Below are positions 46,723 to 62,337 of a DNA stretch of 64,000 nucleotides, piece after piece. The notes beneath the pieces were generated by a model. The model saw only the letters and a list, made by a program, of their open reading frames with translations, was not told where the DNA came from and ran no database searches. The stretch's first letter is position 1; each line of letters begins with the position of its first letter. The position numbers were made by a program, and so were the translations under genes. Origin of the DNA: Chloroflexota bacterium. GTDB taxonomy: Bacteria > Chloroflexota > Anaerolineae > UBA4142. The DNA is taken from positions 1-64,000 of the forward strand of contig JAMCQI010000015.1 in assembly GCA_023381515.1 (NCBI GenBank). The letters are read 5' to 3'.

Positions 46723-47465
46723 TTGGTTTCAGGGCGACAGGTGGGTCTCGTTGTTCCAGACCTCTCAGGAGGCAATTATAAGGCCTGTAGAGTGTAGGGG
46801 CAATTCTTCCCGTGCCATAAGACCAAATGGACTCTCGTGCTATTAGTAAATATTCCATCGTAGGGTCCCGTCCTTCTTTGCCTTGCACTGGAAATTCAGA
46901 CCGTTTCTCTCTTATGAAGACCGGTGTTATGATTTCCATTGTTAGACAGAAACGAAAAACATCCCTCCAAGCGTGAACGGGCTCTGAACCACCGTTCCTC
47001 AGACAGAAAAATTCCACGCTAACGTCGAAAAAAGGACGGTCTTCCAGTGCAAGGGAGAAAAACGGCGGAAGCGATCACCCGCTGCCTTTTCGCTGAGCCT
47101 GAGGAGCGACATTCGATTGCAGCGCAGAACAAATCCGGCGTTAATCGTCGTCGTAAACTGGTTTTCCAGTATGACTCGGAACAGGTCCGACAGACGTTCC
47201 GAACAATCGGAATGGCTAATGGCTTCTACCTTCTCGTAGGTGGAAGCCTTTCTTGTGCCTGGACTCCTTTCTCCACATGGGGAGTCCATTTCATTTTCCG
47301 AGATGGTTCACATGTTCACCCTCGCAGAGGTCGCGGGGTCTGCGACCTACTGGGCTGCTTTTTCCCAGCACCCCTTCTTCATTCCCAGCGTCATTTCTAC
47401 GGAGCGTTCCACCCGCAATTGTCGACCTCCTTCGAGACGCGATGGAGAAGATGAGTTTCAAATGA
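46723..47465. other. No convincing gene
   Basis: About 740 bp with only short frames of poor composition. A perfect 7-bp inverted repeat (AGGTCGC/GCGACCT) lies at about 47326-47346. Likely degraded sequence between the nuclease gene and the TnsA-like remnant. Confidence 0.5.
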
Positions 47466-47640
47466 AGACTACCGGTCGGCAATGCCCGGTTGGTCCATAG
47501 CGACGGCACAAGCATTCGCGGCGTGGTCACGAACAAAGCCGGGCCCTTCGGCCGTCCAGTTCGAATCCTGGCTCGAACGATCTCTCTTGCTGCGTTTGGA
47601 GCGAGACCCCACGGTCAAGGGTTATGGCAGCCAGCCCGAG
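47466..47640 (+). pseudogene. TnsA-like transposon endonuclease remnant
   Basis: Two frames together read TSIRGVVTNKAGPFGRPV and QFESWLERSLLLRLERDPTVKGYGSQPE. This is the conserved start of the TnsA endonuclease domain (FES.LER...L.FDP.V..Y..QP). A one-base shift at about 47560 separates them, and nothing of the C-terminal half remains. TnsA makes the 5' cuts in Tn7-like transposition. It is a small fragment, but the pattern is distinctive. Confidence 0.6.
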
Positions 47641-47859
47641 AAGGCTATGCCGCATCCTGCCAGTTCAGGCAAGAGGATTTTGAATAGGAGCGTGAAAGCC
47701 CGGGGGGGTCTCCAAGTGCCGTATCGTTTTTGTAATCAGCCAGAGAGCTGTCCGAATGAGCTTGAGCAGCAATGGGCTGAGGAGTTCGCCAGAATCTCGC
47801 CCCGGCACTGGGCGTCATCAGACTGCCGCAACCAGTGTCTCCAAACGTGGGTCAAATCC

Positions 47860-48141
47860 TGTGGTCTTGCATAAAGTCGTGCCTGTGAAGGGCATTGCAG
47901 AAAGTCGTGCCCCCGCAAGGCGACAAACACGCGATTCTTGACAAGAATTGCAGAAACTTGCCAACACTGGCCCTTGACATTCGATCTATTGCAGCATATC
48001 CCGCGATAGCCGATGTACTTGAAAGGCAAGATAAGCTCTTGTGGTACCTTGCGGTTCAGGGTTCAGCGGATTGTGCCCATTCCGCAGAGGGGCACGACTT
48101 TTTGCAATGGATGCAGGAGTATGACTTTATGCAAGACAACA
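47860..48141. mobile_element. Miniature Tn7-like transposon (282 bp)
   Basis: Terminal inverted repeats TGTGGTCTTGCATAAAGTC (left, from 47860) and TGTTGTCTTGCATAAAGTC (right, read inward from 48141). A second site at each end (TTGCAGAAAGTCGTGCC left, TTGCAAAAAGTCGTGCC right), and a weaker third at the left (TTGCAGAAACTTGCC), have the look of TnsB-binding sites. The 5 bp AATCC is duplicated at 47855-47859 and 48142-48146, as Tn7-like elements do. No gene inside. Terminal TGT and the repeat array define it. Confidence 0.8.
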
Positions 48142-48155
48142 AATCCTCAGCGCCT

Positions 48156-48186
48156 TAATCGGATTCTAATCTGGGTGTGGTATAAT
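48156..48186 (+). promoter_or_regulatory. TAATC-box promoter of the two-component operon
   Basis: TAATC at 48156-48160 and again at 48167-48171 (11-bp period), then 9 bp, then a perfect TATAAT (48181-48186). The ATG of the response regulator follows 29 bp later. The tandem 11-bp direct repeat next to -10 is the layout used by OmpR/PhoB-type activators, so the operon is probably autoregulated. The mini-transposon's right target duplication ends only 9 bp upstream. Confidence 0.7.
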
Positions 48187-48214
48187 TCAAACGAATCCTT
48201 GTGGAGATTTTTTG

Positions 48215-48892
48215 ATGCGCGTTTTGCTTGTGGAAGATGAAACCCGAATCGCCGCGTTTGTGCGCAAGGGCTTGCAGGAAGAGCAGTACGTCGTGGATGT
48301 CGCGGAGGATGGTGTCGCCGCGCTCGATTTTATCGACGCGACCACCTATGACCTCATCCTCCTCGATGTGATGTTGCCGTGCCGCGATGGGTTTAGTGTG
48401 TGCAAAGAAATTCGGCGGCGCGGAATGAAAACGCCGGTGCTGATGCTGACCGCCCGCGACGCGGTGGACGACCGCGTGCGTGGCTTGGACGCGGGCGCGG
48501 ACGATTACCTCGTCAAGCCCTTTGCGTTCAAAGAACTGTTGGCGCGCTTGCGCGCGCTCGCGCGCCGCCCGCCCGAAACCCAATCCCTGGAACTATGCAT
48601 TGGCGACTTGACGCTGGACACGACGACGCATCAAGCCGCGCGCGCGGACCAAGCCATCGAGTTGAGCGCGCGCGAGTATCGTCTGCTCGCATTTCTGATG
48701 CGGCACGCGGGACAGCCGCTGACGCGCACGCAGATCGCCGAAGGCGTGTGGGGCTATGACTTTGACGCGAACTCGAATGTGGTGGACGTCTACATTCGCT
48801 ATCTGCGTCGTAAGGTGGACGACCCGTTTGAAACCAAGTTGATTCAAACCGTGCGCGGCGTCGGCTATAAAATCGAGGCATCCAATGTTTAA
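48215..48892 (+). CDS. OmpR/PhoB-family response regulator
   Basis: 225 residues. Receiver domain with acidic pair E7-D8, phosphoacceptor D51 (LILLDVMLP), and the conserved Lys in DDYLVKPFAF. A winged-helix C-terminal domain follows (LSAREYRLLAFLMRHAGQPLTRTQIAEGVWG...VVDVYIRYLRRKVD). GGAG lies 8 nt before the ATG; a TTG directly upstream is a less likely start. It overlaps the kinase gene by 8 nt. Candidate regulator of the TAATC-box promoters. Confidence 0.95.
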   Translation: MRVLLVEDETRIAAFVRKGLQEEQYVVDVAEDGVAALDFIDATTYDLILLDVMLPCRDGFSVCKEIRRRGMKTPVLMLTARDAVDDRVRGLDAGADDYLVKPFAFKELLARLRALARRPPETQSLELCIGDLTLDTTTHQAARADQAIELSAREYRLLAFLMRHAGQPLTRTQIAEGVWGYDFDANSNVVDVYIRYLRRKVDDPFETKLIQTVRGVGYKIEASNV

Positions 48893-50315
48893 GACGATTC
48901 GAGCGCGCCTGACCCTATGGTACATCGCGCTCCTCGCGCTGATCCTGATCGCGTTCAGCGCGGCGCTCTATTTCACCCTGGCGCGTTCGCTATACCAACA
49001 GGTGGACAACACGCTGCGCCTGAACGCGGAGCAACTTGCCGGCGCAGTGAACATCGAACAGGGACAAGTCAACTTTCAGAATAGCGAAGGCGATACGTCC
49101 GACGCGGCGAGCCTGCGCGAATCGGGCTATCTGGTGCGCTTGGTGGACGCGGGCGGACATATCGTGGATACGAATGCGCGCTTTGCCGCGCTGCCGGTCG
49201 CGCAAAGCGCGCTCGACGCCGCGCGGGGCGGGCAAGCGCCGCTGGAAACCGCCGCGGTCAACGGACGCCCGTACCGCATCTACACGCGCCCGATCAGCGA
49301 GAATGGAAGTTTTTACGGCGCGCTGCAAATCGCCCAGCCACTCGACGAGGTGGAAAGCGCGCTGCGGCAGTTGCTCGTGCTGCTCTTCGCGATCGTCCCG
49401 CTCACGCTCGCGCTGGCGTCGGGCGGCGGCTACTGGTTCGCCCAGCGCGCACTCGCGCCGATGGAACGCATCACGCGCGCGGCGCGGCGCATCAGCGCGC
49501 AAGATTTGAGTCAGCGTCTGAATATGAACTTGCCCGACGATGAAGTGGGACGGCTCGCGCGCACGTTCGACGGAATGTTGGCGCGGCTCGACGACGCGTT
49601 TCGCCGTGAGCGCGAATTCACCGCGAACGCGTCGCACGAATTGCGGACGCCGCTGACGGTGATGCGCGGCGAGATCGACGTTGCGCTGAATCGTCCGCGC
49701 TCCAAAGACGAGTACGCGCGCGTCTTGCGCGGAATCGGCGAAGACGTGGATCGCTTGACGGAAATGGCAAACGATTTACTGATCCTCGCGCGCGCGGACG
49801 CGAGCAAACTGCCGCTCCAATTCGACGCGGTGAGTGCGGCGCGTTTCCTTCAAGCCGTCGCTGACGAAATGCGCCCGCTCGCGGAAGAACGCGCCATCGC
49901 GCTCGTCGAACACGCGGACGAACCGCTGACCATTTGGGCGGATGAAGACAAACTGCTCCACGTTATGTTCAACCTGGTCGAGAACGCTTTGAAATTCACG
50001 CCGCGCGGCGGAACGATTACCTTGTCTGCCGCCCGCGAAAATCAACACGCGCTTGTAACGGTCACCGATACGGGCGCGGGGATTGCGCCCGACCATTTGC
50101 CGCACATCTTTGAGCGGTTCTATCGCGCCGACGAAGCGCACGCTTCGCACACGGGCGGCGCGGGGCTGGGCCTCGCCATCGCGCACGCGCTCGTCGCCGC
50201 GCAAGGCGGCGCGCTGGAAGCGCGCAGCGTCCAGGGACACGGCGCGACGTTTACGATTCGGATGGCGATGCAAAAACCTTCCAGGTCTTCAACACCTGGA
50301 AGGTTTGGAGGATGA
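48885..50315 (+). CDS. Sensor histidine kinase
   Basis: 476 residues. Transmembrane helix about 11-33, a periplasmic/extracellular domain of about 130 residues, a second helix (LLVLLFAIVPLTLALASGGGYW), HAMP, then HisKA (ANASHELRTPLTVMRGEID) and HATPase domains (N-box LVENALKFTPRGG, DTGAGIAPDHLPHIFERFYR, GGAGLGLAIAHALV). Phosphorylates the adjacent response regulator. Its last about 13 codons lie in a palindromic repeat, so the tail has been altered by a repeat insertion. Confidence 0.95.
   Translation: MFKTIRARLTLWYIALLALILIAFSAALYFTLARSLYQQVDNTLRLNAEQLAGAVNIEQGQVNFQNSEGDTSDAASLRESGYLVRLVDAGGHIVDTNARFAALPVAQSALDAARGGQAPLETAAVNGRPYRIYTRPISENGSFYGALQIAQPLDEVESALRQLLVLLFAIVPLTLALASGGGYWFAQRALAPMERITRAARRISAQDLSQRLNMNLPDDEVGRLARTFDGMLARLDDAFRREREFTANASHELRTPLTVMRGEIDVALNRPRSKDEYARVLRGIGEDVDRLTEMANDLLILARADASKLPLQFDAVSAARFLQAVADEMRPLAEERAIALVEHADEPLTIWADEDKLLHVMFNLVENALKFTPRGGTITLSAARENQHALVTVTDTGAGIAPDHLPHIFERFYRADEAHASHTGGAGLGLAIAHALVAAQGGALEARSVQGHGATFTIRMAMQKPSRSSTPGRFGG
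50274..50306 (+). repeat. Palindromic dispersed repeat (AACCTGGAAGGT type)
   Basis: 13-bp perfect arms (50274-50286 and 50294-50306) around a 7-nt loop, containing ACCTGGAAGG. A relative with the same core is at 51195-51213. Such short palindromes recur in Chloroflexota genomes. This one lies in the 3' coding end of the kinase. Confidence 0.7.
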
Positions 50316-50660
50316 ATGACCTGGGATTGGCATTTATTTCTCGCCATCAATCAGCTCGCGGGACAATCGCAACTTTTAGATGCCGCGGGCAGGTTTTTTG
50401 TCGAAGATGCCTTTATGGTTTTTCCGCTGTTGCTGATCGCGCTGTGGTTTGTGCTGGGACGCGCCCGCTGGCTCTGGGTCGCATTGGGCGCTCTCATCGG
50501 CGTTGCGCGCGTGTTCGTCGGCGTGCATTATCCCATCGACGTGTTGGACGGCGCGGCGCTCGGCGCAACCTGGGGCTTGCTCGCGCTGGCGTTCGCGCCA
50601 TCGCTCGCACTCATCGAAACGCCGCTTCTCGAACGACTGGCGCGCTGGCGGTTGGCGTAG
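50316..50660 (+). CDS. Truncated PAP2-family phosphatase-like membrane protein
   Basis: 114 residues with three hydrophobic segments. The N terminus (DWHLFLAINQLAGQSQLLDA) and the C-terminal catalytic motif (RVFVGVHYPIDVLDGAALG, with the R, H and D of PAP2 motif C3) fit a membrane phosphatase such as undecaprenyl-diphosphatase. Motifs C1 and C2 (K...RP and PSGH) are missing, apparently by deletion, so activity is doubtful. The ATG directly follows the kinase stop with GGAGG upstream. Confidence 0.7.
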   Translation: MTWDWHLFLAINQLAGQSQLLDAAGRFFVEDAFMVFPLLLIALWFVLGRARWLWVALGALIGVARVFVGVHYPIDVLDGAALGATWGLLALAFAPSLALIETPLLERLARWRLA

Positions 50661-50754
50661 CGATCCATCGAACATTCAACTCGTCTCGCAAGAGGCGAGT
50701 GTTTTTATTGGCGCGGACGATAACACAACTGTAATCTTTTTGCCGCACTCGTTT

Positions 50755-50774
50755 TAATCTGCGCCGTTTATACT
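50755..50774 (+). promoter_or_regulatory. TAATC-box promoter
   Basis: TAATC (50755-50759), 9 bp, TATACT (50769-50774). An additional TAATC lies 23 bp upstream. The surrounding 50 bp are nearly the same as at 57410-57460 (for example CTCGTTTTAATC). Drives the small secreted protein gene 70 bp downstream. Confidence 0.65.
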
Positions 50775-50843
50775 GACGCTAGTTTCGCAGACGATCCTTC
50801 GACTCCGCTCAGGAGGCTGACGAATCAACTATAGGAGGTTACG

Positions 50844-51176
50844 ATGAAACGAAATTTGCTGGCGCTTGCCGCCGTGATGGCGTTCGCGTTCCTCGCGCTC
50901 GGCGCAGTGGGACACGCCTCGGCGCAAGGACCGACGGGCACACCGCCCCCAACGTCGAGCGCGGTTGCGCCGAGTGTGGACAATGAGCCGCAATCGGCGG
51001 TGGACACCGACACTACGCAAGACCAGGTCGGCGCGCAAGTCGAAGACCGCACGCCCGATGGCGCCGAACTCCAATCGAATGCGCCTGACACGGACACCAT
51101 CCAAGATGGTTCGCAATCAGGCAATCAGATCAAAGATGGCTTGCCTGAAACGACCACTCCCGAAACGGGCGGCTAG
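50844..51176 (+). CDS. Small secreted acidic protein
   Basis: 110 residues. Signal peptide (KRNLLALAAVMAFAFLALGAVGHASAQ) followed by an unstructured Thr/Pro/Asp/Gln-rich chain (PTGTPPPTSS, DTDTTQDQVG, DTIQDGSQSGNQIKDG). AGGAGG before the ATG. A relative, with the same AQGP.T.PP junction, is at 59119. Function unknown; probably released or wall-associated. Confidence 0.7.
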   Translation: MKRNLLALAAVMAFAFLALGAVGHASAQGPTGTPPPTSSAVAPSVDNEPQSAVDTDTTQDQVGAQVEDRTPDGAELQSNAPDTDTIQDGSQSGNQIKDGLPETTTPETGG

Positions 51177-51194
51177 TCGGCACGTAGAGACCCT

Positions 51195-51213
51195 CCAGGT
51201 TTCCAAAACCTGG
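51195..51213 (+). repeat. Palindromic dispersed repeat
   Basis: CCAGGTTT and AAACCTGG arms around a 3-nt loop, in the AACCTGGAAGGT family also seen at 50274. It lies in the 64-bp gap between two genes and may act as an mRNA hairpin. Confidence 0.6.
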
Positions 51214-51240
51214 AAGGTCTTCAAAGGTCTGGTCACGACG

Positions 51241-52356
51241 ATGAAAACTCTAACCTTCCGATTCATTCAAATCGAATTGATGCTGGTCGCGCTGATGCTC
51301 ATAGGCATCACGAGCGCGTTCCTGATTTCGCCGAACGCGCTGACCCAGGTCGTGGACGGCGTGCGCGGAATCGTCGGACCCGAACCGATCGCGCTTGCTG
51401 AAACTGTCTATTACGGCGCGACGGACACGCTCCAACAAAACACGAGCACGGCGAGCACGCCTCGCTTTTGGTCGCCGCCCGCGCCATCCCAGGTCGCGCC
51501 CGCAAACATATTTTCGCCGCGCACCGTGCCGCCGCTCTATCCCGCGCTCGCCGCGCCAGGCGAAGGCACGTGGACGCCGATTCCAAATTCATTCAATCCG
51601 AGCGCCGCGCCGCTGATGTATAAAACCTTTTTGCATCCCGACGCCACGCGCCTCTACGCCCAGGTCGCCATCGTCGCGCTCGATGCCACGCGCCTGCGTC
51701 TGCGCGCCGTCGCGGGCACCAAGGAGCCAGTCTCGACCGCGAGCGTCCCGCGCCCAGGGTTGATTCCTAGTTCCGATGTGGCGTCGCTCGTCGCCGCGTT
51801 CAACGGCGGATTCAGAGCGATCCACGGTCATTACGGGATGATGGTCAAGGGGCAAGCGCTTTTGCCGCCGTTGCTCAATGCGAACACGATTGCGCTCTAC
51901 CGCGATGGCAGTATGCGGATCGCGCCCTGGTCGTTCATATCGGACACGCTGCCGTTGATGGGATCGTTTCGCCAGACGCCCGCTTATTTGGCGCTCGACG
52001 GTCAGACCAATCCTGATTTGCAGAATGAACAATTTTCTCCCTGGGGCAAAAGTGTCAACGGCAAAATCGCGATTTCCCGTTCCGCGCTCGGCATTAGCGC
52101 GGATGGACGCACGCTGTATTACGCCGCGGGCGAGTCGCTCACCACGCAACATCTCGCCGAAGCATTGGTCGCCGCGGGCGCGAGCAATGTCGCCGAGTTG
52201 GACGTGAACTGGTCGTATCAACATCTTCTGACGTATGCGCCGCGCGCGGGCAATCCGACGGAACAGGTATTGCTCGACGCGATGGTTTACCAACCTGGGA
52301 TGTACGTGACGCGTCCATCGCCACGCGACTTTTTCTACCTGACGCTCGTCAAATAA
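51241..52356 (+). CDS. Phosphodiester-glycosidase-like (NAGPA/DUF2233) exported protein
   Basis: 371 residues. An N-terminal membrane anchor (LMLVALMLIGITSAFLI) precedes a linker and a C-terminal domain with LVAAFNGGFRAIHGHYGMMVKGQ, ALGISADGRTLYYAAGES and ASNVAELDVNWS. The family cleaves phosphodiester-linked sugars, usually with an NLDGGGS motif. Here that is ELDVNWS, so substrate or activity may differ. A close paralogue is at 57556 with the same order of blocks. Likely acts on cell-envelope glycopolymers. Confidence 0.75.
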   Translation: MKTLTFRFIQIELMLVALMLIGITSAFLISPNALTQVVDGVRGIVGPEPIALAETVYYGATDTLQQNTSTASTPRFWSPPAPSQVAPANIFSPRTVPPLYPALAAPGEGTWTPIPNSFNPSAAPLMYKTFLHPDATRLYAQVAIVALDATRLRLRAVAGTKEPVSTASVPRPGLIPSSDVASLVAAFNGGFRAIHGHYGMMVKGQALLPPLLNANTIALYRDGSMRIAPWSFISDTLPLMGSFRQTPAYLALDGQTNPDLQNEQFSPWGKSVNGKIAISRSALGISADGRTLYYAAGESLTTQHLAEALVAAGASNVAELDVNWSYQHLLTYAPRAGNPTEQVLLDAMVYQPGMYVTRPSPRDFFYLTLVK

Positions 52357-52401
52357 TCTGTGCAGAACCTAGTCACCGCGATGAGGAGCAGGAATCTGCC
52401 T

Positions 52402-52432
52402 TAATCGGGTTTTCATCTGGCGGTAGTAGACT
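52402..52432 (+). promoter_or_regulatory. TAATC-box promoter
   Basis: TAATC (52402-52406) and TCATC (52413-52417) at 11-bp period, then 9 bp and TAGACT (52427-52432). The upstream part CCTTAATCGG is identical to that of the response-regulator promoter. ATG of the lipoprotein follows 43 bp later. Confidence 0.65.
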
Positions 52433-52475
52433 GAGAATAATCCCACATCTGCGGCGCGTGCGACGAGGGCAATTT

Positions 52476-53429
52476 ATGCTCAACAGCAAAATTTTCCCGC
52501 TGCTCGCTTTCATCGCGCTCGTTCTGGTCGTCGCGTGCAGCCGTCCTGCGGTATCCCAAGCGGAAACAAAGCCGATCGAGGCTGAGACTCACGCGGCGCT
52601 GAATTCGCCTGCGCAACCGGTGGCTCCCCGGAATCCGACTGTCGCGCAAGATAATCTGCCGGGCGTTCAACCAGTCAAATCGCTTGATCGACATCGCGAG
52701 GCCAACACTGGCGATAACAAGATCAAGTCAATTGACAAACACGTCGACGACCGAACGAGTAGGTTCCCGCGCGCGCGAAAGACCCATGCGGCAACACCAA
52801 CTCCGGTGGTCGCGCGTGGGGATATCGTCGCCCAAACGCTGGAGGGCGGCTACGTCTTGATCAAACCCGACGGGACCGTTCAGCCGATCGATGAGCGGAC
52901 TTTCGCGGCGCACTGGCGTGACCCCGCGCTGGCCCCCGATGGCACGTTTCGTCTCGTCGTCGCCGGTTGGGATGTACTCCATCAATCGACGGATGGGCGC
53001 TCAGCCCCAGGGACGGTAGCGAAGACAGGCGAAGGGCACGCGTTCGATCAGGGACTGGTAGCGGTGGACAGTCTCGGTCTGTTCGGTGCCGTCGTCCAAA
53101 ACCATCGCGATATCTTCCTCTTCGAAGCGCAAAACGCGCATCACCAGGGAGTGATTTTCACTGTTCCAGGATCAGTGGCGGCGATCGAAAAACTTGTCTG
53201 GGGCATTGGACAACATGCAGACGATCTATTGCTCCTCCTGCGCGATAGAAATGGCGCGGGTGGAGCCTTTTTGGCTTCACCCGGCAGCGCAGCATCTGCC
53301 GCCCCAACACGTTCGCGCGGCTTGTTCCAGTGCCCTCCATCGCTTGACCGATTGCATGATGAGACACAACCGGAAAATGGAGAAACAACTCGTGCTTATA
53401 CGCGACCATGTTCTGGATGCCTCGGTCGT
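52476..53429 (+). CDS. Lipoprotein, possibly fused to or cut by the next gene
   Basis: Signal peptide with lipobox (LVVAC, Cys21), a disordered linker (TEIKS/DKHVDDRTSR-type), and a beta-propeller-like region (TLEGGYVLIKPDGTVQPIDERTF, DGTFRLVVAGWDVLHQSTDG, FLFEAQNAHHQGVIFT). No stop is seen before the frame enters the membrane protein starting at 53430, so the end is uncertain. The last 50 residues before 53430 look disordered. Confidence 0.55.
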
Positions 53430-54736
53430 ATGGTGAAGTGGATACGGCTGACCCGCGTGCCTTATCCCGCCAGTTGGGTGATCGTGGCGGTTTCTCTAAT
53501 TGCCGTCGCCGCGCTGACGAAAACCGAACCAAAATCTTGGAACGACCAGTCGCACATTGCCGCGATCGAGTCGTTCGTCGAGCGCGGGACCTGGGCGATC
53601 GATGGTTCGGCTTGGGTGGGTCAGACCGGCGACAAGGTCTTTCTTCAGGGTCGGTTCTATTCCGACAAGATGCCGCTGCTGTCGCTCGTGGGCGCAGGGG
53701 TCTACGCGATTTTGCACTATGGCTTCGGCGGGTCACTTGCGTCTAACTGTCACCTGGCGGGCAAGTTCTGCGCTTACTACTGGTTGACCTTGGGACTCGT
53801 TGGCTTACCCGCCGCGCTGATGCTCTGGCTCTTTTATGATTTCGCACGCCGCAGTGGGCGGCGCTGATCGGGACCTTTGCGTTTGGACTTGGCACGATGG
53901 TGTTTCCCTATGCGCTCGTCTTCAATCACCATCTGCCCGCTGCGGTCAGTCTGTTTCCAAGTTTCTACCTCCTGACGGCGCACGCGGCGAGCAGTCGCTG
54001 GGGGATGCTGGCAGCCGGTTTCCTCGCTACCCTGGCGCTCTCGTTCGACGCGTTGGCTGGGGTGATGGCAGTCAGCCTGTTCGCCATCGCGCTCGCATGC
54101 GACCGTTCCCAGGCACGCTACCTGATCGTGGGCGCGGCAATTCCGCTCGCGCTCACGGCACTGCTCGATTACCAGATCACCCAGACGGTTTTTCCGCCCT
54201 ACCTGATTCCCAATGGGTTTGCCTACCCCGGCTCTGCCTTGCCGGCAACCATCGGAGGCAACGCCGCGCCCGATGATTATGCGGTTTACGTATTCCCAAT
54301 GTTTGTCGGAGGGAAGGGGTTGTTCCCGTACAACCCGCTGCTCTTGTTCGCGCTCGCTGGCGCGATTGGCGTCGTGCGCCACCGAAAGCACGCCCTGAGG
54401 GTGGAAGCGGTTTGCGTCCTGTTCGGTTTCATACTGCAGAGTCTTCATCTCGCAACGAACACCCGTGATCTCGGCGGCACAGGGTACGGCGAACGCTGGT
54501 TCGTTTCTGCGCTCCCACTACTGTTTGCGTTCATCTTTTTCGCGCCGCCTTTGAATTTGGCGATTGGGAAAAGCGCCGCGTGGATTCTTTTCATCCCGCT
54601 GCTTGGACTTTCCGTATTCTCATCGCTCCAGGGCGCGCAAGCTCCGTGGCACGAATGGCTGCCGCCGGCGCAGATGATCCGCTTTCGCGAAGCTCCGAAT
54701 ATCATCGGAATCCGGTGGAACGTGAAATTTCCATGA
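53430..54736 (+). pseudogene. Polytopic membrane protein (GT-C-like), frameshifted
   Basis: First frame 53430-53867: VIVAVSLIAVAALT helix, SHIAAIESFVERGTWAIDG and GRFYSDKMPLLSLVGAGVYAIL (an extracytoplasmic acidic loop like GT-C enzymes), LWLFYD. The second frame begins FRTPQWAALIGTFAFGLGTMVFPYALVFNHH and runs to 54736 with six or more helices. The join lies at the T-run at 53839-53842; one added T restores a single gene. Probably a polyprenyl-sugar glycosyltransferase, or its relict. Sequencing error is possible. Confidence 0.65.
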
Positions 54737-54752
54737 GCCATCGGGTAGAACC

Positions 54753-55703
54753 ATGATACGCATAACTCTTTCGCCACTCAGCTGGGTGGGACTCGCCGCG
54801 CTATTCGTCGCCTGCGCGCCGCTCTCCTCTCCGCAAACGCAAAATACGCCCACGGCGATTCTCCGCGCGACGCGAACCCTCGCGCCGATCGAGACCGCAG
54901 GCGCCGTCGCGCACATCGTCCCATCCACTCAACCGATAGCGGAGCCGACCGGCACGCCTCTCCCGGCGGCAAGCGCGGCGAAGCCAACGCCGCTCGCCGT
55001 TCAGCCCTGCCGCGAAACGCAGGGGGGATTATCCGTTGCGGATTTCGACAGCGCAACGCTCGGACGCCGCATCGCCTACTCGCTTTACCTCCCGCCGTGC
55101 TACGACGCAGACCCGCAGCGCCTCTATCCCGTGCTCTATCTTCTTCACGGCGTCAACGCCGATCACACCCAATGGCCCGATCTGAACGTCGCGCCGGAAG
55201 CAGACGCGTTGATCGCCCAGCGCGCGATCGCGCCGCTCGTCATCGTGATGCCGGATGGAGACTATCGCGCCAGTGAAGATTATGCCGCGTTCGTGTTGCG
55301 CGACTTAATGCCGCACGTCGAGCAAACCACGCGCGTCTCGCGCGAGCGCGCCGATCGCGCGATTGGCGGTCTCTCGCGCGGCGGCTATTGGGCGCTCTAC
55401 CTCGCCCTGCTGCATCCTGATCTTTTCAGCGCGGTTGGCGGTCACAGTCCGGTCATCAACCCCGCGCTGACCGAAGCGCTGGCGCTGCCTGCAGGCGCGG
55501 CTGAGCGCAGCACGCTGCGGATTTACCTGGATGTCGGGCGCAATGATCCGCTTGCGCCAAGCGTGGCATCGTTCGCGGCTGCGGCGCAAGCTCATCACTT
55601 GAATTCGGTTTTTCACCTTTACGACGGAGCAAACAATCGCGACTATTGGTGCGCTCACACCGCCGAGTATCTGGTCCGTTACGCCGCCGATTGGCGAAGA
55701 TAA
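54753..55703 (+). CDS. Esterase-family lipoprotein (alpha/beta hydrolase)
   Basis: 316 residues. Lipobox FVAC at the end of a signal peptide, linker, then an esterase-D/antigen-85-type fold: PVLYLLHG, VIVMPDGDYR, the nucleophile elbow GGLSRGGYWAL and YLDVGRNDPLAPS (acid). In the usual catalytic His position (GGHxWxxW) the protein has GANNRDYW, so the triad may be incomplete. Exported; acts outside the membrane. Confidence 0.75.
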   Translation: MIRITLSPLSWVGLAALFVACAPLSSPQTQNTPTAILRATRTLAPIETAGAVAHIVPSTQPIAEPTGTPLPAASAAKPTPLAVQPCRETQGGLSVADFDSATLGRRIAYSLYLPPCYDADPQRLYPVLYLLHGVNADHTQWPDLNVAPEADALIAQRAIAPLVIVMPDGDYRASEDYAAFVLRDLMPHVEQTTRVSRERADRAIGGLSRGGYWALYLALLHPDLFSAVGGHSPVINPALTEALALPAGAAERSTLRIYLDVGRNDPLAPSVASFAAAAQAHHLNSVFHLYDGANNRDYWCAHTAEYLVRYAADWRR

Positions 55704-55734
55704 CCTCTGGCTTGCCGGATTTCCAAGAATTAGC

Positions 55735-57273
55735 ATGGAGCTTAATTTGTCGCGATTCACCGCGCGCCTTCACAACTCGGAACGCCTGTCCGAGCTCCTC
55801 GCTCAACTTGATCTTCGCAGCCCATTTCTTCACCTGGGTGTTCTCGGCGCCTTCACCTGGCTTTTCTATCTCCACATGACGATGACGTATCCATTGCCGG
55901 GCGTCGTCGCGCGATTCCCCCTCACGGATTTTGGACGGGCGAACAATTACAGCCCGGCGGCGCTCGAGGATTTCTTGATTTCTATCTTCATCCCGTTTGG
56001 ACTGTACCTGATGGCCTGGCAAGTTCTCCGCCGCGTTTCTTCCGATCACCGCTTGCTTGCGCTGGTGGTCGGCTTTGCGATTTTGTTCACGCTCACGCTG
56101 TTGATCATGTACCCCATCGGCGCGACCGACCTGTTTGACTATGTGTTCTATGCGCGTATCCTGGTGCGCTACGGGCAGAATCCGTTGAGCGTGCCGCCCA
56201 TGGTATTTCGCAGCGACCCTTTCATCAAGACGGTTGTCTGGTACAAGACGCCCGCGCCTTATGGTCCGTTGTGGGTGCTGCTGACGGCGCCGGGTTCCTA
56301 TCTTGCCGGCGACAACCTCACGCTCAATCTCTTCGCGATGAATGTGCTACCGGCAGTGTTCTTTTTGGGATGCGTGTTGGTCATCCCATCCATCCTGAAA
56401 CATCTCGGTCCCGGTCATCGTCTGGTGGGCACGCTGCTTTTCGCGTGGAATCCGCTCGTCTTGTTCGAAGCGCCCGGCAATGCGCATAACGGGATCATCA
56501 TGATGTTCTTCCTCCTCCTCGCGGTCTATTTCCTCGTCCGCCGCGCGTGGATTTGGGTGATGCCCGCGCTGGCGGCGTCCGTTTTGATCCAGTACGCTTC
56601 GGCGCTTCTGGTCCTGCCCTTCTTCCTCTATTGTTTGCGCGCGCAAGCCGGCTCAAAGAATCGATTCCGCGACCTGGTCATTTCGGGGGTGATCTCGTCT
56701 GTTCTGGTCGCCGTCGTCATTGCGCCATTCTTCGCGATTCCCACCGGCTTGCTTGAGGAAGCGCATTGGTTCAGTCTCCTCGCCGTTCCAACGCTACTGT
56801 ATCATTATCTGAAGGGCTTTATAGGCGACTCGAACGCCGGGTTCTGGACGATGCTGGGGACCCATTTGACTTTCCTGGTTGTGTATGGCTTTGGCTTGCG
56901 GCGGATGAACAGCATTGAGCATCCACGTGGACTGGTCCATCTCAGCACCTGGCTTATCCTCGCTTATCTGGCGATGGCGTCCGTGTCCTTTCAGCCCTGG
57001 TTCATCTTGTCGCCGATCGCGTTGGGCATTTGGATCGATCACCGTCTCGTGCGACGCGTCATTCTCGTATCCACGGCGTCGGGGCAGTTGTCGTACGCCG
57101 TCGCGTTTTTCTGGGTTTGGAATTGGACGCTCTGGCAAAGGATCCAGACGAATGCGATCGTCGTCGGAGTGATCTTTGGGCCCCCGCTCGTTGCCGGTGT
57201 CTTGACGGTGGCGCGCGATCAGTGGGTTCGCTATGGACGAACCTCAATCGACTCTGTGGCAGTGCGACCCTGA
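55735..57273 (+). CDS. GT-C-like polytopic membrane glycosyltransferase
   Basis: 512 residues with about 12 predicted membrane helices. The loop after the second helix pair reads YPIGATDLFDYVFYARILVRYGQNPLSVPP, with an acidic residue pair typical of polyprenyl-phosphate-mannose/arabinose transferases (GT87/MptB-like). FAWNPLVLFEAPGNAHNG is another block of that group. Probably adds sugars to envelope polymers. Starts 29 bp after the esterase gene. Confidence 0.7.
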   Translation: MELNLSRFTARLHNSERLSELLAQLDLRSPFLHLGVLGAFTWLFYLHMTMTYPLPGVVARFPLTDFGRANNYSPAALEDFLISIFIPFGLYLMAWQVLRRVSSDHRLLALVVGFAILFTLTLLIMYPIGATDLFDYVFYARILVRYGQNPLSVPPMVFRSDPFIKTVVWYKTPAPYGPLWVLLTAPGSYLAGDNLTLNLFAMNVLPAVFFLGCVLVIPSILKHLGPGHRLVGTLLFAWNPLVLFEAPGNAHNGIIMMFFLLLAVYFLVRRAWIWVMPALAASVLIQYASALLVLPFFLYCLRAQAGSKNRFRDLVISGVISSVLVAVVIAPFFAIPTGLLEEAHWFSLLAVPTLLYHYLKGFIGDSNAGFWTMLGTHLTFLVVYGFGLRRMNSIEHPRGLVHLSTWLILAYLAMASVSFQPWFILSPIALGIWIDHRLVRRVILVSTASGQLSYAVAFFWVWNWTLWQRIQTNAIVVGVIFGPPLVAGVLTVARDQWVRYGRTSIDSVAVRP

Positions 57274-57437
57274 AAGCAGCCAGTGCCTGCGCCGCACGCA
57301 ACAACGGCAACCCGTGCAACGCAAAAATGTCTCACCGAAACTCGTCCCCCCGGGGACGAGTTTCTTGTTGTGCGGCGCGCAAACGACCGAAACCCTCTTC
57401 AAATTAGAACACTGTAACCTCTACGCCGCGCTCGTTT

Positions 57438-57457
57438 TAATCCGCGCCAGTTATACT
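57438..57457 (+). promoter_or_regulatory. TAATC-box promoter
   Basis: TAATC (57438-57442), 9 bp, TATACT (57452-57457). The whole stretch from 57410 to 57460 is close to the promoter at 50755, including CTCGTTTTAATC and a TAACC 23 bp upstream. ATG of the paralogous glycosidase-like gene is 99 bp downstream. Confidence 0.65.
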
Positions 57458-57555
57458 GAAGGCAGATTCGCCGCACGCGACGGCGAAGCAAGTCGCGCGA
57501 ACGGCGAGAACGCAGGATCGTCCTGTGTCCCCGCCGAGCCGTGGAGGGTTTTGCA

Positions 57556-58761
57556 ATGAGACTCTGGTTTCTGGAAGCAATCGTCATTCCCCTGGCGCTG
57601 ATTCTGGCGATGGCTTTTGCATTTCTCGCGATCCATCCAACGGCGATCCCATCGCTCGTGGACCAGACGCGCACACTCGTCGGTCCTGAACCGATTGCGG
57701 CGGCGGAGAATGTGTTCTATGGCGTTTCGGACGCGTATCGAAAGATGACTTGCGGCGACTGCACGACGCCCGGCTATTGGACGCCGGCGACGCCGGCTCA
57801 GTCTGCCGCGCAGATAGCAACACAGCGGACGGCGGCTCCGTCCGTTGCTATTTCTGCTTCACAGACCACAACTGTGGCAACACAACCACCGGCGCCACCC
57901 ATTCGTTTTCAGCCGCGCGACCTCGCGCCGCTCTATCCCGCTCTCGCCGCGCCGGGCGAAGGAGTGTGGACGACATTGCCCAATTCGTTCGATCCGAGCG
58001 CCGCGCCGCTGACGTACAAAACGTTTCTGCACTCCGATCCCGCGCGTCCATACGCGCGCGTCGCCATCGTCGCCATCGATGCGACGCGCCTGCGTCTGCA
58101 CGCAGTTGCCGGAACCCTCGAGCCAGTTTCTGCCGCGCGCGTCGCGCGCTCGGGATTGATTCCGCGCACCGACCTGGCGGCGCTCGTCGCCGCGTTCAAC
58201 GGCGGCTTTAAGGCGATTCACGGCCACTATGGGATGATGGTGGACGGTCAAACGATTCTCCCGCCGCAGCCCAACGCGGATACAATCGCGATCTATCGTG
58301 ATGGGCGCGTGCGCATCGCGCCATGGTCGATCATCTCGGACACCCTGCCATCGATGCAGTCGTTTCGGCAGACGCCGGCATTTCTGGCGTACCACGATCA
58401 GGTCAATTCCGCGTTGGCCGACGAACAACTCTTTTCTTGGGGCAAGAGTGTCAGTGGCAAGACCGTGATCTGGCGCTCGGCGCTCGGCATCAGCGCGGAT
58501 GGGCGCACGCTGTACTACGCCGCCGGCGAATCGCTCACCGCGCGACGCTTGGCGGAAGCGCTCGTTGCCGTGGGCGCGAGCAACGCGGCGGAGTTGGACG
58601 TGAACTGGTCGTTCGAGCGCTTTCTCACGTACGCGCCGCCCAGCGGCAAGTTGACCGAGCAGGTTCTGCTCGATCGGTTGCACTATCAGCCGGGGATGTA
58701 CGTCGTGTATCCGTCGGCGCGCGACTATTTCTACCTGACGCTCGCGAAGGCAACCAAATGA
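57556..58761 (+). CDS. Phosphodiester-glycosidase-like exported protein, paralogue 2
   Basis: 401 residues from ATG 57556 (GGAGG 8 nt upstream). Membrane anchor (IVIPLALILAMAFAFLAI), VGPEPIAAAE block, Cys-pair segment (TCGDCTTPGYW), linker, then LVAAFNGGFKAIHGHYGMMVDGQ, LGISADGRTLYYAAGES and ASNAAELDVNWS as in the 51241 protein. Both have the same DVNWS change in place of the usual DGGGS. A recent tandem-type duplication of the module. Confidence 0.75.
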   Translation: MRLWFLEAIVIPLALILAMAFAFLAIHPTAIPSLVDQTRTLVGPEPIAAAENVFYGVSDAYRKMTCGDCTTPGYWTPATPAQSAAQIATQRTAAPSVAISASQTTTVATQPPAPPIRFQPRDLAPLYPALAAPGEGVWTTLPNSFDPSAAPLTYKTFLHSDPARPYARVAIVAIDATRLRLHAVAGTLEPVSAARVARSGLIPRTDLAALVAAFNGGFKAIHGHYGMMVDGQTILPPQPNADTIAIYRDGRVRIAPWSIISDTLPSMQSFRQTPAFLAYHDQVNSALADEQLFSWGKSVSGKTVIWRSALGISADGRTLYYAAGESLTARRLAEALVAVGASNAAELDVNWSFERFLTYAPPSGKLTEQVLLDRLHYQPGMYVVYPSARDYFYLTLAKATK

Positions 58762-58805
58762 TGAATGCAAATCGCCGTCGATCCGGCGCAACGAAGGAGC
58801 ACACC

Positions 58806-59018
58806 GTGAACAAAGACGCACGTCACCCCACCGCATTGCTCGCGCAGGTCGAGGCGGCTCGCGCCGCGCGCGATTGGCTGGCCCTGCATGACTTGGGGTT
58901 CGCGCGATTCAAACCCAATAGCCAGGGCGGCGAGTCGTATTGGTTCCGTCAGGATGCCTACAACCGACTCCAGCGCGCGGCGGCGAGGCGCAATGGCGCA
59001 AGCGCAGACGACGAATAA
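58806..59018 (+). CDS. Small hypothetical protein
   Basis: 70 residues from GTG 58806 with AAGGAG 6 nt upstream (ATG 58758 is also in frame). Basic helical protein: LLAQVEAARAARDWLALHDLGFARFKPNSQGGESYWFRQDAYNRLQRAAARRN. No signal peptide. It lies between exported-protein genes. Not recognised. Confidence 0.55.
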   Translation: MNKDARHPTALLAQVEAARAARDWLALHDLGFARFKPNSQGGESYWFRQDAYNRLQRAAARRNGASADDE

Positions 59019-59056
59019 GAAATGAGAGAATTCAAATTTCAACCCTTGCCAGTCTC

Positions 59057-59076
59057 TAATCCTGGACGAGTAGAAT
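59057..59076 (+). promoter_or_regulatory. TAATC-box promoter
   Basis: TAATC (59057-59061), 9 bp, TAGAAT (59071-59076), with the small secreted-protein ATG 43 bp downstream. Same spacing as the other five copies, but without a second box 11 bp upstream. Confidence 0.55.
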
Positions 59077-59118
59077 GTTGGTGTAAGTGAAAATCCAAAA
59101 AGAAGGGAGGTGAGAACA

Positions 59119-59379
59119 ATGTTGGCAAACCTGAAACGCAAGGTGCTGGTTGGCTCGGTCACGGGCTTGATCCTCTTCGGAGGCGCGCTCCCACTGTTCG
59201 TCAGTCAGGCGGACGCGCAAGGTCCGGTGACGACCCCACCCGCGGTGGAGACGGTCGAGTCTCCTGAGATGCTTGGCGAGTCTGCGGAAGCGAAAGGCGC
59301 CGACCTGGACGCGATCCAAGCCGGTCCCGGTCAGCAACTCGAGCAGCAGGGCGGCAGCACCCTGGACGGCAACTTCTAG
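59119..59379 (+). CDS. Small secreted protein, relative of the 50844 gene
   Basis: 86 residues. GGGAGG upstream of ATG 59119. Signal peptide (GSVTGLILFGGALPLFVSQADAQ), then an unstructured region (GPVTTPPAVETVES...LDAIQAGPGQQLEQQGGSTLDGNF). Shares the AQGP/PP junction and a D.IQ.G motif with the 50844 protein, and both sit behind TAATC-box promoters next to a glycosidase-like gene. Confidence 0.7.
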   Translation: MLANLKRKVLVGSVTGLILFGGALPLFVSQADAQGPVTTPPAVETVESPEMLGESAEAKGADLDAIQAGPGQQLEQQGGSTLDGNF

Positions 59380-59483
59380 TCTTCGTGGGGGGACGACGTT
59401 ATGCCGCCCCCTCACGAATATTCATCGCACTCGTCAGAGCGTTATATCATCCCAAAGATTCACCCAAGAAGAGTCCCAAAGTT

Positions 59484-59514
59484 TAATCGGCTTGTAATTC
59501 AGCTATCGTACGAT
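59484..59514 (+). promoter_or_regulatory. TAATC-box promoter
   Basis: TAATC (59484-59488) and TAATT (59495-59499) at 11-bp period, 9 bp, TACGAT (59509-59514). The stretch TTAATCGG at the first box is shared with the two-component promoter. Lipoprotein ATG follows 45 bp later. Confidence 0.65.
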
Positions 59515-59558
59515 CAAGACAACAAGACTTGGACTTCACAGTATGAAAGGATTTTGAA

Positions 59559-60311
59559 ATGCAAAACAAAACGTTTTCCATGCGATTGATGCTTGCCGCG
59601 TTCGCGCTGCTTGCGCTCGTCGCGCTCGTCGCGTGCGGCAGCCCGGCGGCGTCCGACCCAACATCCCCCAGTAGTTCCGCGCCGGTGGTCGTCCCAAGCA
59701 ACCCGCCGGCGGCGCAACCGACCACGCCTGCCGGCGAAGCCACGAAACCCGGCGGTGAGGGCGCAAGCAAACCGGAAGCTGGGTCTTCCCTTCCCAGCAT
59801 GACCGATCCGGGCGGACTGCCGCCGTCAGTAGCGCAGACGAACTCACAAACGGGTCAAGAGAAGATGGTCGTCTACCGTGATCCACAAAATCGCTACCAG
59901 GTTCTCTTCGTCAGCGGCTGGACGACCGGCGCGGGTAGCGCACCCGGCAGCATCAAGTCTGCTTTTCATGATCACAGCGCGCAGACCGCCATCGTGAGCA
60001 GCGGCGGCAAGAACGCGCTCGCCTTTGCGACGGCAGATGAGGCGAATGTCAAGTCGGCACCGGGCTATCAGCTGCTTGCGCTCAAACCTGGACAGATTCC
60101 GTACGGTCCGGTCGTGAGTCTGATCTATCGCTATCAGGCGGGGCAGAATCCAGTCACCCGCAAGCCGCTGGAGCACATCGCGGCGCGCGTCTACGTGCCG
60201 CGCCCGGGATCGAACGATCTCGCGATCATCACAGTCACAGCGCCCGCGACGAGCTACGGCGACCTGACCCAAATCTTCGACCAGATCGTCGCCAGTTTCA
60301 AATGGATGTAG
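59559..60311 (+). CDS. Lipoprotein, tandem paralogue 1
   Basis: 250 residues. Lipobox LVAC (Cys27), then a Pro/Thr-rich linker and a domain of about 140 residues: MVVYRDPQNRYQVLFVSGWTTGAG...LIYRYQAGQNPVTRKPLEHIAARVYVPRPGSNDLAIITVTAP...IFDQIVASFKWM. The pattern recalls PsbP-like outer-face lipoproteins, but that is a weak match. The neighbour at 61441 is a clear duplicate. Confidence 0.7.
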   Translation: MQNKTFSMRLMLAAFALLALVALVACGSPAASDPTSPSSSAPVVVPSNPPAAQPTTPAGEATKPGGEGASKPEAGSSLPSMTDPGGLPPSVAQTNSQTGQEKMVVYRDPQNRYQVLFVSGWTTGAGSAPGSIKSAFHDHSAQTAIVSSGGKNALAFATADEANVKSAPGYQLLALKPGQIPYGPVVSLIYRYQAGQNPVTRKPLEHIAARVYVPRPGSNDLAIITVTAPATSYGDLTQIFDQIVASFKWM

Positions 60312-61440: not shown

Positions 61441-62337
61441 ATGCAACTCAGAATGTCTTTTCCGCGATTGCTGCTAGCCGCGCTCGCGCTTCTCGCGCTT
61501 GTCGCGCTCGCCGCGTGCGGCAGCCCGACAGCGCCGAAAGCGCCAGCCCAGCCGGTCACGCGCGGCACTGCCGCGCCGGCGAATTCGTCCGCGCCGGCAG
61601 TCGTCCCGACGAATCCACCCGCAGCGCCGAACAATCCGCCCGCCGCGCAGCCGACCGCGCCTGCCAGCACGTCCGGCGAACGCGTGAAACCCGGCGGCGA
61701 AGGCGCGCCCGGCACGGAAGGCAGCAGCCCCGAAGGCGGACCCTCCATTCCGAGCGTCACCAATCCCGGCGGTTTGCCCCCGTCAACGCAGGGGGGCAAC
61801 ATGAATACCGGCGAAGAGAAGATGGTGGTCTATCGCGATGCGCCGAATCGCTATCAGATTCTTTTCGTCAATGGCTGGACCACGGGAGCAGGCAACGCCG
61901 CCGGCAGCATCAAGTCGACGTTCCAGGACCGTCGCATTGAGATCGCGGTCGTCAACAGCGGCGGACAGTCTGCGCTTGCCTTCGCAACGACGGACGAGCC
62001 GAACGTCAAGTCGGCGGTGCCGGGCTATCAACGGCTTGCGCTCAAACCCGGGCAGATTCCTTCCGGTCCGGTCGTGAGTCTGATCTACCGGTACCAAGCC
62101 GGGCAGAACCCGGTCACCGGCAAGGCGCTGGATTTCATCGCCGCGCGCGTCTATGCGCCGCGCCCCGGATCGAACGATCTAGCGATCATCACCGTGACAA
62201 GTCCTGCCTCGGTCTACAGCGATCTCAGCGATCTCTTCGACCGCATCGCCAGCAGTTTCAAATGGCTGCAAAAGGAGACGCAATGTTCGGCACTCAAACC
62301 ATTCATCGTCCCATCGAAACGGACGGCGCGCTCTTGA
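61441..62337 (+). CDS. Lipoprotein, tandem paralogue 2
   Basis: 298 residues. Lipobox LAAC, a long Pro/Ala/Asn linker, and the same C-terminal domain as 59559 (MVVYRDAPNRYQILFVNGWTTGAG, LIYRYQAGQNPVTGKALDFIAARVYAPRPGSNDLAIITVTSP). The tail beyond SSFKW extends into the next gene by 55 bp, so its natural stop may have been lost. Very likely arisen from 59559 by duplication. Confidence 0.7.
   Translation: MQLRMSFPRLLLAALALLALVALAACGSPTAPKAPAQPVTRGTAAPANSSAPAVVPTNPPAAPNNPPAAQPTAPASTSGERVKPGGEGAPGTEGSSPEGGPSIPSVTNPGGLPPSTQGGNMNTGEEKMVVYRDAPNRYQILFVNGWTTGAGNAAGSIKSTFQDRRIEIAVVNSGGQSALAFATTDEPNVKSAVPGYQRLALKPGQIPSGPVVSLIYRYQAGQNPVTGKALDFIAARVYAPRPGSNDLAIITVTSPASVYSDLSDLFDRIASSFKWLQKETQCSALKPFIVPSKRTARS

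Follow-up and report, generated by a model that had tools for sequence, protein, structure and literature searches.

The 64,000-nucleotide window analyzed here, the whole of positions 1 to 64,000 of contig JAMCQI010000015.1 from a Chloroflexota bacterium of the class Anaerolineae (GCA_023381515.1), contains an OmpR-family response regulator gene at 48215, an overlapping sensor histidine kinase gene, and six promoters that share a TAATC-like box in front of a -10-like hexamer (Table 1). The regulator, hereafter the 48215 protein, falls into the OmpR/PhoB family by both of its domains: the receiver (110.2 bits, cutoff 30.2) and the winged-helix Trans_reg_C domain (100.4 bits, cutoff 26.2). All six boxes are on the + strand, from 48155 to 59514, an 11.4-kb span adjoining the regulator gene. 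Each is followed by a TANNNT hexamer after exactly nine bases (N9), as a sequence-only reading of this DNA had claimed: TAATC at 48167, 50755, 57438 and 59057 (before TATAAT, TATACT, TATACT and TAGAAT, respectively), TCATC at 52413 (TAGACT) and TAATT at 59495 (TACGAT). The second TAATC copy, which that reading placed 11 bp upstream of the first (48156, 52402 and 59484), is present at all three promoters. This gives three full 11-bp direct repeats, each with its -10: 48155-48186, which is indeed the promoter of the response regulator itself, and 52401-52432 and 59483-59514, both in front of lipoprotein genes (52476 and 59559). Of the remaining promoters, 50755 stands ahead of genes for a small, apparently exported protein (50844) and a glycosidase-like protein (51211), 57438 ahead of the paralogous glycosidase-like gene (57556), and 59057 ahead of another small, apparently exported protein (59119).

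To judge chance occurrence, we counted the patterns in 60 second-order Markov simulations of the window. TAATC-N9-TANNNT occurs four times on the two strands of the 64 kb, every time at a box listed above, with 0.15 expected and a simulation maximum of 1; a degenerate full box occurs three times and in none of the simulations. This test is post hoc, since its patterns were derived from the window itself. As an independent test, a matrix was derived from 11 regulator promoters of other genomes, which had been picked by a relaxed pattern that already requires the spacing. Among 127,940 positions it gave the top three ranks to 48156, 52402 and 59484, in this order (33.4, 32.1 and 17.6 bits; next-best site elsewhere, 11.6). 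The half-sites followed at ranks 11 (59046), 15 (50744) and 24 (57427). When 71 class-wide sites were used for the matrix instead, the same three full sites again came out on top, with the half-sites at ranks 8, 9 and 26. In five of the six promoters, including all three with full repeats, no hexamer 15-19 bp before the -10 matches TTGACA at more than 3/6 positions, and a scan of 47000-60000 for ordinary sigma-70 sites gave 3 (3.1 in shuffles), none coinciding with the promoters discussed here. The three full sites therefore display the anatomy of class II direct-repeat activation: tandem half-sites about 11 bp apart in the -35 zone, a fixed distance to the -10, and no -35 hexamer. The OmpR-family domains and this 11-bp-period repeat over the -35 zone support the earlier assignment to an OmpR/PhoB-type activator.

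The same layout recurs upstream of related regulator genes. Among 24 such genes (E <= 1e-80, from 23 of 298 class genomes, the class being that of genome L001 described below), 11 carry the repeat, with N6 between the pentamers and N9 to TANNNT, no more than 160 bp upstream, whereas shuffled promoters gave a mean of 0.031 and a maximum of 1. A stricter pattern, swept over repeat gaps of N3-N9 and -10 gaps of N4-N14, returned only matches with a repeat gap of N6; the -10 gap was N9 in 10 of them, N6 in one, N11 in one and N14 in two. With the -10 omitted from the search pattern, 396 genomes yielded four regulator promoters, all of which had TANNNT at N9; three of them recur in the matches listed for the class-wide search with the -10. 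The closest regulator in the genomes searched (genome L001, 85% identical) has TTAATC-N5-TTAATC-N9-TATGCT as its own promoter and the gene order regulator, kinase, PAP2, NAGPA (glycosidase); at the protein level the regulator has nearer relatives, 88-93% identical. By this comparison of promoter sequences, the proposed autoregulation gains support. A variant arrangement occurs at L008:1904-1931, in a metagenome-assembled genome titled Patescibacteria with a regulator 57% identical: three TTAATC copies at 11 bp, then TACAAT after a 6-bp gap.

The fixed distance to the -10 would also suit a sigma-factor promoter element instead of an activator site. We regard this as very improbable: the motif recurs before response-regulator genes, it consists of two copies with a period of 11, and these stand 9 and 20 bp ahead of the -10, neither distance matching the usual -35 spacing of about 16-18.

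Because near-identical repeats stand at a fixed N9 and the same layout is found on related regulators, the 48215 regulator likely switches on its own gene and the envelope genes behind these repeats. Full boxes near TTMATC-N5-TTMATC-N9-TANNNT are predicted operators for a head-to-tail dimer of the 48215 protein, which would take the place of the absent -35 contact and bring in RNA polymerase. We infer that it binds and activates in a phosphorylation-dependent manner, with transcription from the predicted start sites. The regulator-kinase operon would thereby switch on itself and at least the lipoprotein genes 52476 and 59559, a combination of positive autoregulation and activation that we consider probable. 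At 50755, 57438 and 59057, binding would go through a single good half-site in the same phase, making these promoters weaker targets.

Among known systems, the best reading by analogy is PhoB/CiaR-like class II activation with positive autoregulation. In streptococci, the repeat TTTAAG-N5-TTTAAG is reported as essential for regulation by CiaR, and the published promoter search used a distance of ten from the repeat to TATAAT (PMC3091779). The direct repeat with an N5 gap and the fixed -10 distance are found here as well, the TTAA core lies 11 bp from the -10 in both CiaR and window boxes, and the recognition helices are similar (VVEVYVSKVRKKL vs VVDVYIRYLRRKV). However, CiaR belongs to another phylum, and its half-site is TTTAAG with an important final G, whereas the window and foreign sites are TTMATC or near it. 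PmrA/BasR likewise binds head-to-tail half-sites, CTTAAT and CCTAAG (PMC3973317), but the letters differ and the 48215 protein scores 206 bits against the cutoff of 330 for NCBIfam NF007928. The best-scoring NCBIfam subfamily is CopR/CusR/SilR, narrowly missed by the regulator (TIGR01387), as is the CopS-type model TIGR01386 by the kinase (291.6 vs 292.55 bits). A heavy-metal role was set aside, because no metal-resistance family was found among the 17 proteins scanned and the sensor stretch of the kinase has no Cys or Met. AgrR (PMC7380067) is a proposed type II activator with positive autoregulation, as proposed for the window regulator; its core site, by contrast, is the inverted repeat ATKACA-N4-TGTMAT rather than a direct repeat, although AgrR is among the regulator's nearest named relatives.

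Class-wide, the pattern TTMATC-N5-TTMATC with TANNNT 3 to 15 bp downstream matched in 125 of 396 genomes, with at least 150 matches and a few places entered twice with two hexamers. N9 accounted for 66 of the 150 among the matches listed (next best spacing, 13), and the reversed-pattern control over all 396 genomes gave 28 by hand count. In the 23 regulator-bearing genomes the box pattern gave 22 and the control 3; varying the repeat gap from N1 to N10 there yielded 35 matches, 11 at N5 and the remainder mostly simple 7-bp tandem repeats. We read 71 distinct N9 sites in their loci, after removal of identical duplicates and with some drawn from genomes chosen for having the regulator. TGN, an extended -10 feature outside the search pattern, precedes the -10 at 29/71 of them vs 2/26 at other spacings. 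A same-strand open reading frame (ORF) of at least 100 codons starts within 230 nt at 50/71 (11/31 for other spacings), and only 1/71 lies inside an opposite-strand ORF (10/31). OmpR-family regulators make up 12 of the 71 downstream ORFs. The 18 scanned proteins behind box or near-match sites include ABC ATPases, a sugar transferase, NapC-type, cytochrome-assembly and thioredoxin-like proteins, proteases and a binding protein, and by eye heat-shock genes occur too. Since the box also precedes other OmpR-family regulators, ABC ATPases, cytochrome-biogenesis and heat-shock genes, several paralogous regulators probably read it. ABC-transporter ATPase genes of one kind lie behind a box or near match in L115, L138, L139, L194, L195 and L277 (three of the six Pfam-scanned), perhaps a conserved target.

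These data raise the idea of one grammar in Anaerolineae, TTMATC-N5-TTMATC-N9-(TGN)TANNNT, read by a self-activating OmpR-type family in which a helix residue sets TAATC or TCATC; we put this forward tentatively, at slightly less than an even chance. In our own alignment the candidate residue corresponds to PmrA Asn196 and PhoB Arg201. In this clade IRY goes with 6/6 TA-type promoters, while IRN or VRN accompanies 6 TC-type promoters and none of the TA type. TC-type boxes also occur with two IRY regulators, and the distant regulator of L176, with an IRNLR helix and a TAATC box, counts against covariation. Uncorrected for kinship between regulators, the helix/half-site covariation is only a lead. 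The diversity of genes behind the box elsewhere, and its presence before OmpR-family regulators only 36-44% identical to the 48215 protein, would also suit a real class-wide operator that is bound at the lipoprotein promoters by other OmpR-family paralogues, the 48215 protein controlling its own gene only. This seems unlikely to us: the six window sites are clustered in 11.4 kb next to the 48215 regulator, and their TAATC half-sites fit the TA-type promoters paired in this clade with the IRYLRRK helix.

Several observations weigh against autoregulation and local activation by the 48215 protein. A box within 160 bp upstream is missing at 13 of the 24 related regulators; one of these, a 75% relative, has a perfect repeat about 310 bp upstream with GAAAAT, and no TANNNT, at the -10 place. 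The closest genome, of 4.3 Mb, has a single exact N9 box, located at its regulator. Class-wide, same-strand ORFs of at least 150 codons enclose 20/71 N9 sites vs 3/31 others, possibly due to over-long ORF starts. Within the window, the box found at 59559 is absent from its paralogous lipoprotein gene at 61441. N-terminal hydrophobic segments are not enriched behind the class-wide box (21/52 vs a background of 23/68). Lone half-sites fare no better: in the two closest genomes (G001 and G252), YTAATC-N9-TANNNT gave 14 and 19 matches and the reversed pattern, as a control, 20 and 19. The 59057 promoter carries a -35-like TTGCCA (5/6 to TTGACA), 19 bp ahead of the -10, and may therefore be an ordinary promoter.

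The claims of the sequence-only reading are supported in part. Its envelope regulon, with all other targets exported, fits the five local targets, all predicted exported from their N termini (4/5 pass the hydropathy threshold, 59119 by eye), and finds no counterpart class-wide. In the closest genome, sites with up to two mismatches number 18 vs 4 in the control, and the two one-mismatch sites lie in front of genes for a trypsin-like protease and a small protein, each of which has an N-terminal hydrophobic segment; by sequence these suit an envelope role, in two cases only. Its six-promoter regulon is likely at the three full-repeat sites, and the three half-site promoters are not secured. As lone half-sites are not enriched in the closest genomes, these three rest on local clustering and phase. 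They could be chance or inherited promoter sequence, with only 3/6 promoters belonging, which is compatible with activation at the full sites and to us a serious possibility, if somewhat short of an even one. The lack of enrichment, the low matrix scores and the -35-like hexamer at 59057 all fit this, and so does the relation of 50755 to 57438: the two promoters are alike and apparently duplicated, so that we count them as one event, and their glycosidase-like proteins are 61% identical. On the other side, the window has four matches where 0.15 are expected, of which the regulator has one and the other three lie ahead of exported genes, and TTTTAATC and TTATACTGA are unchanged between the duplicates.

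No operator is described for Chloroflexota OmpR-type regulators among the open-access literature matches listed, a coverage that leaves out subscription journals, and neither the half-site nor the phylum with response-regulator operators gave anything on point in the open-access matches listed or in the accessible part of PMC4395418. A 32-base promoter grammar recognizable from sequence alone would allow regulon prediction in mostly uncultured bacteria, and direct-repeat control appears here in a regulator that has the dyad-using AgrR among its closest named relatives.

Table 1. Promoter elements and genes of the regulator locus, in window coordinates
Feature	Position	Strand	Basis
Full operator TTAATC-N5-CTAATC, response-regulator promoter	48155..48171	+	exact position; matrix rank 1
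-10 TATAAT, TGG before it, N9 from operator	48181..48186	+	position; no -35
OmpR-family response regulator	48215..48892	+	Pfam Response_reg and Trans_reg_C; TIGR01387 276 vs cutoff 279.2 bits
Sensor histidine kinase, overlapping regulator gene	48885..50315	+	HisKA, HATPase_c, HAMP, 2CSK_N
Short PAP2-family phosphatase gene, 114 aa (190 aa in L001)	50316..50660	+	Pfam; L001 comparison
Terminator-like stem with T run, between regulator operon and 50755 promoter	50679..50700	+	21 such sites in 13 kb vs 15.5 in shuffles
Half-site TAATC-N9-TATACT	50755..50774	+	exact position; matrix rank 15; duplicated promoter
Small exported protein (predicted)	50844..51176	+	N terminus
Membrane-anchored phosphodiester-glycosidase-like protein	51211..52356	+	NAGPA E 6.4e-5, 23.7 bits, below cutoff 25
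Full operator TTAATC-N5-TTCATC	52401..52417	+	exact position; matrix rank 2
-10 TAGACT at N9	52427..52432	+	position
Lipoprotein reading frame, lipobox VVAC	52476..53867	+	N terminus
Half-site TAATC-N9-TATACT, duplicate of 50755 promoter	57438..57457	+	exact position; matrix rank 24
NAGPA-family paralogue, 61% identical to 51211 product	57556..58761	+	30.2 bits vs cutoff 25
Half-site TAATC-N9-TAGAAT	59057..59076	+	exact position; matrix rank 11
Small exported protein (predicted)	59119..59379	+	N terminus by eye; below hydropathy threshold
Full operator TTAATC-N5-GTAATT	59483..59499	+	exact position; matrix rank 3
-10 TACGAT at N9	59509..59514	+	position
Lipoprotein, lipobox LVAC	59559..60311	+	N terminus

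Terminator-like stem-loops at 50679-50700 and 57337-57364 stand directly before the duplicated promoters and would part them from upstream genes; the evidence for the former is weak, given how often such sites arise in shuffles. The AgrR-type dyad ATKACA-N4-TGTMAT is not enriched with up to three mismatches (37 vs 31.6 expected), and with at most one mismatch it occurs once against 0.16 expected, a count reached in 15/100 shuffles and consistent with chance. That one stretch, ATAACA-N4-TGTAAT at 50720-50735, has one mismatch to the AgrR box, lies 19 bp before the 50755 box, and is partly retained, with two mismatches, at 57403-57418 in the duplicate promoter. The window PAP2 protein is without the middle stretch that carries the RPF and PSDH segments in L001; given this and its short length, its product is probably inactive. 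Homologues of the 59559 lipoprotein were sought in 7 genomes and none matched, an empty answer that carries no weight in that search, and NAGPA homologues were present in 35 of the 396 genomes. The open frame 52458-53867 has a lipoprotein start and a 3' part that reads like a different membrane protein, which suggests a frameshift or fusion. Finally, the lipoproteins at 59559-60311 and 61441-62337 are 70% identical over 199 aligned residues.

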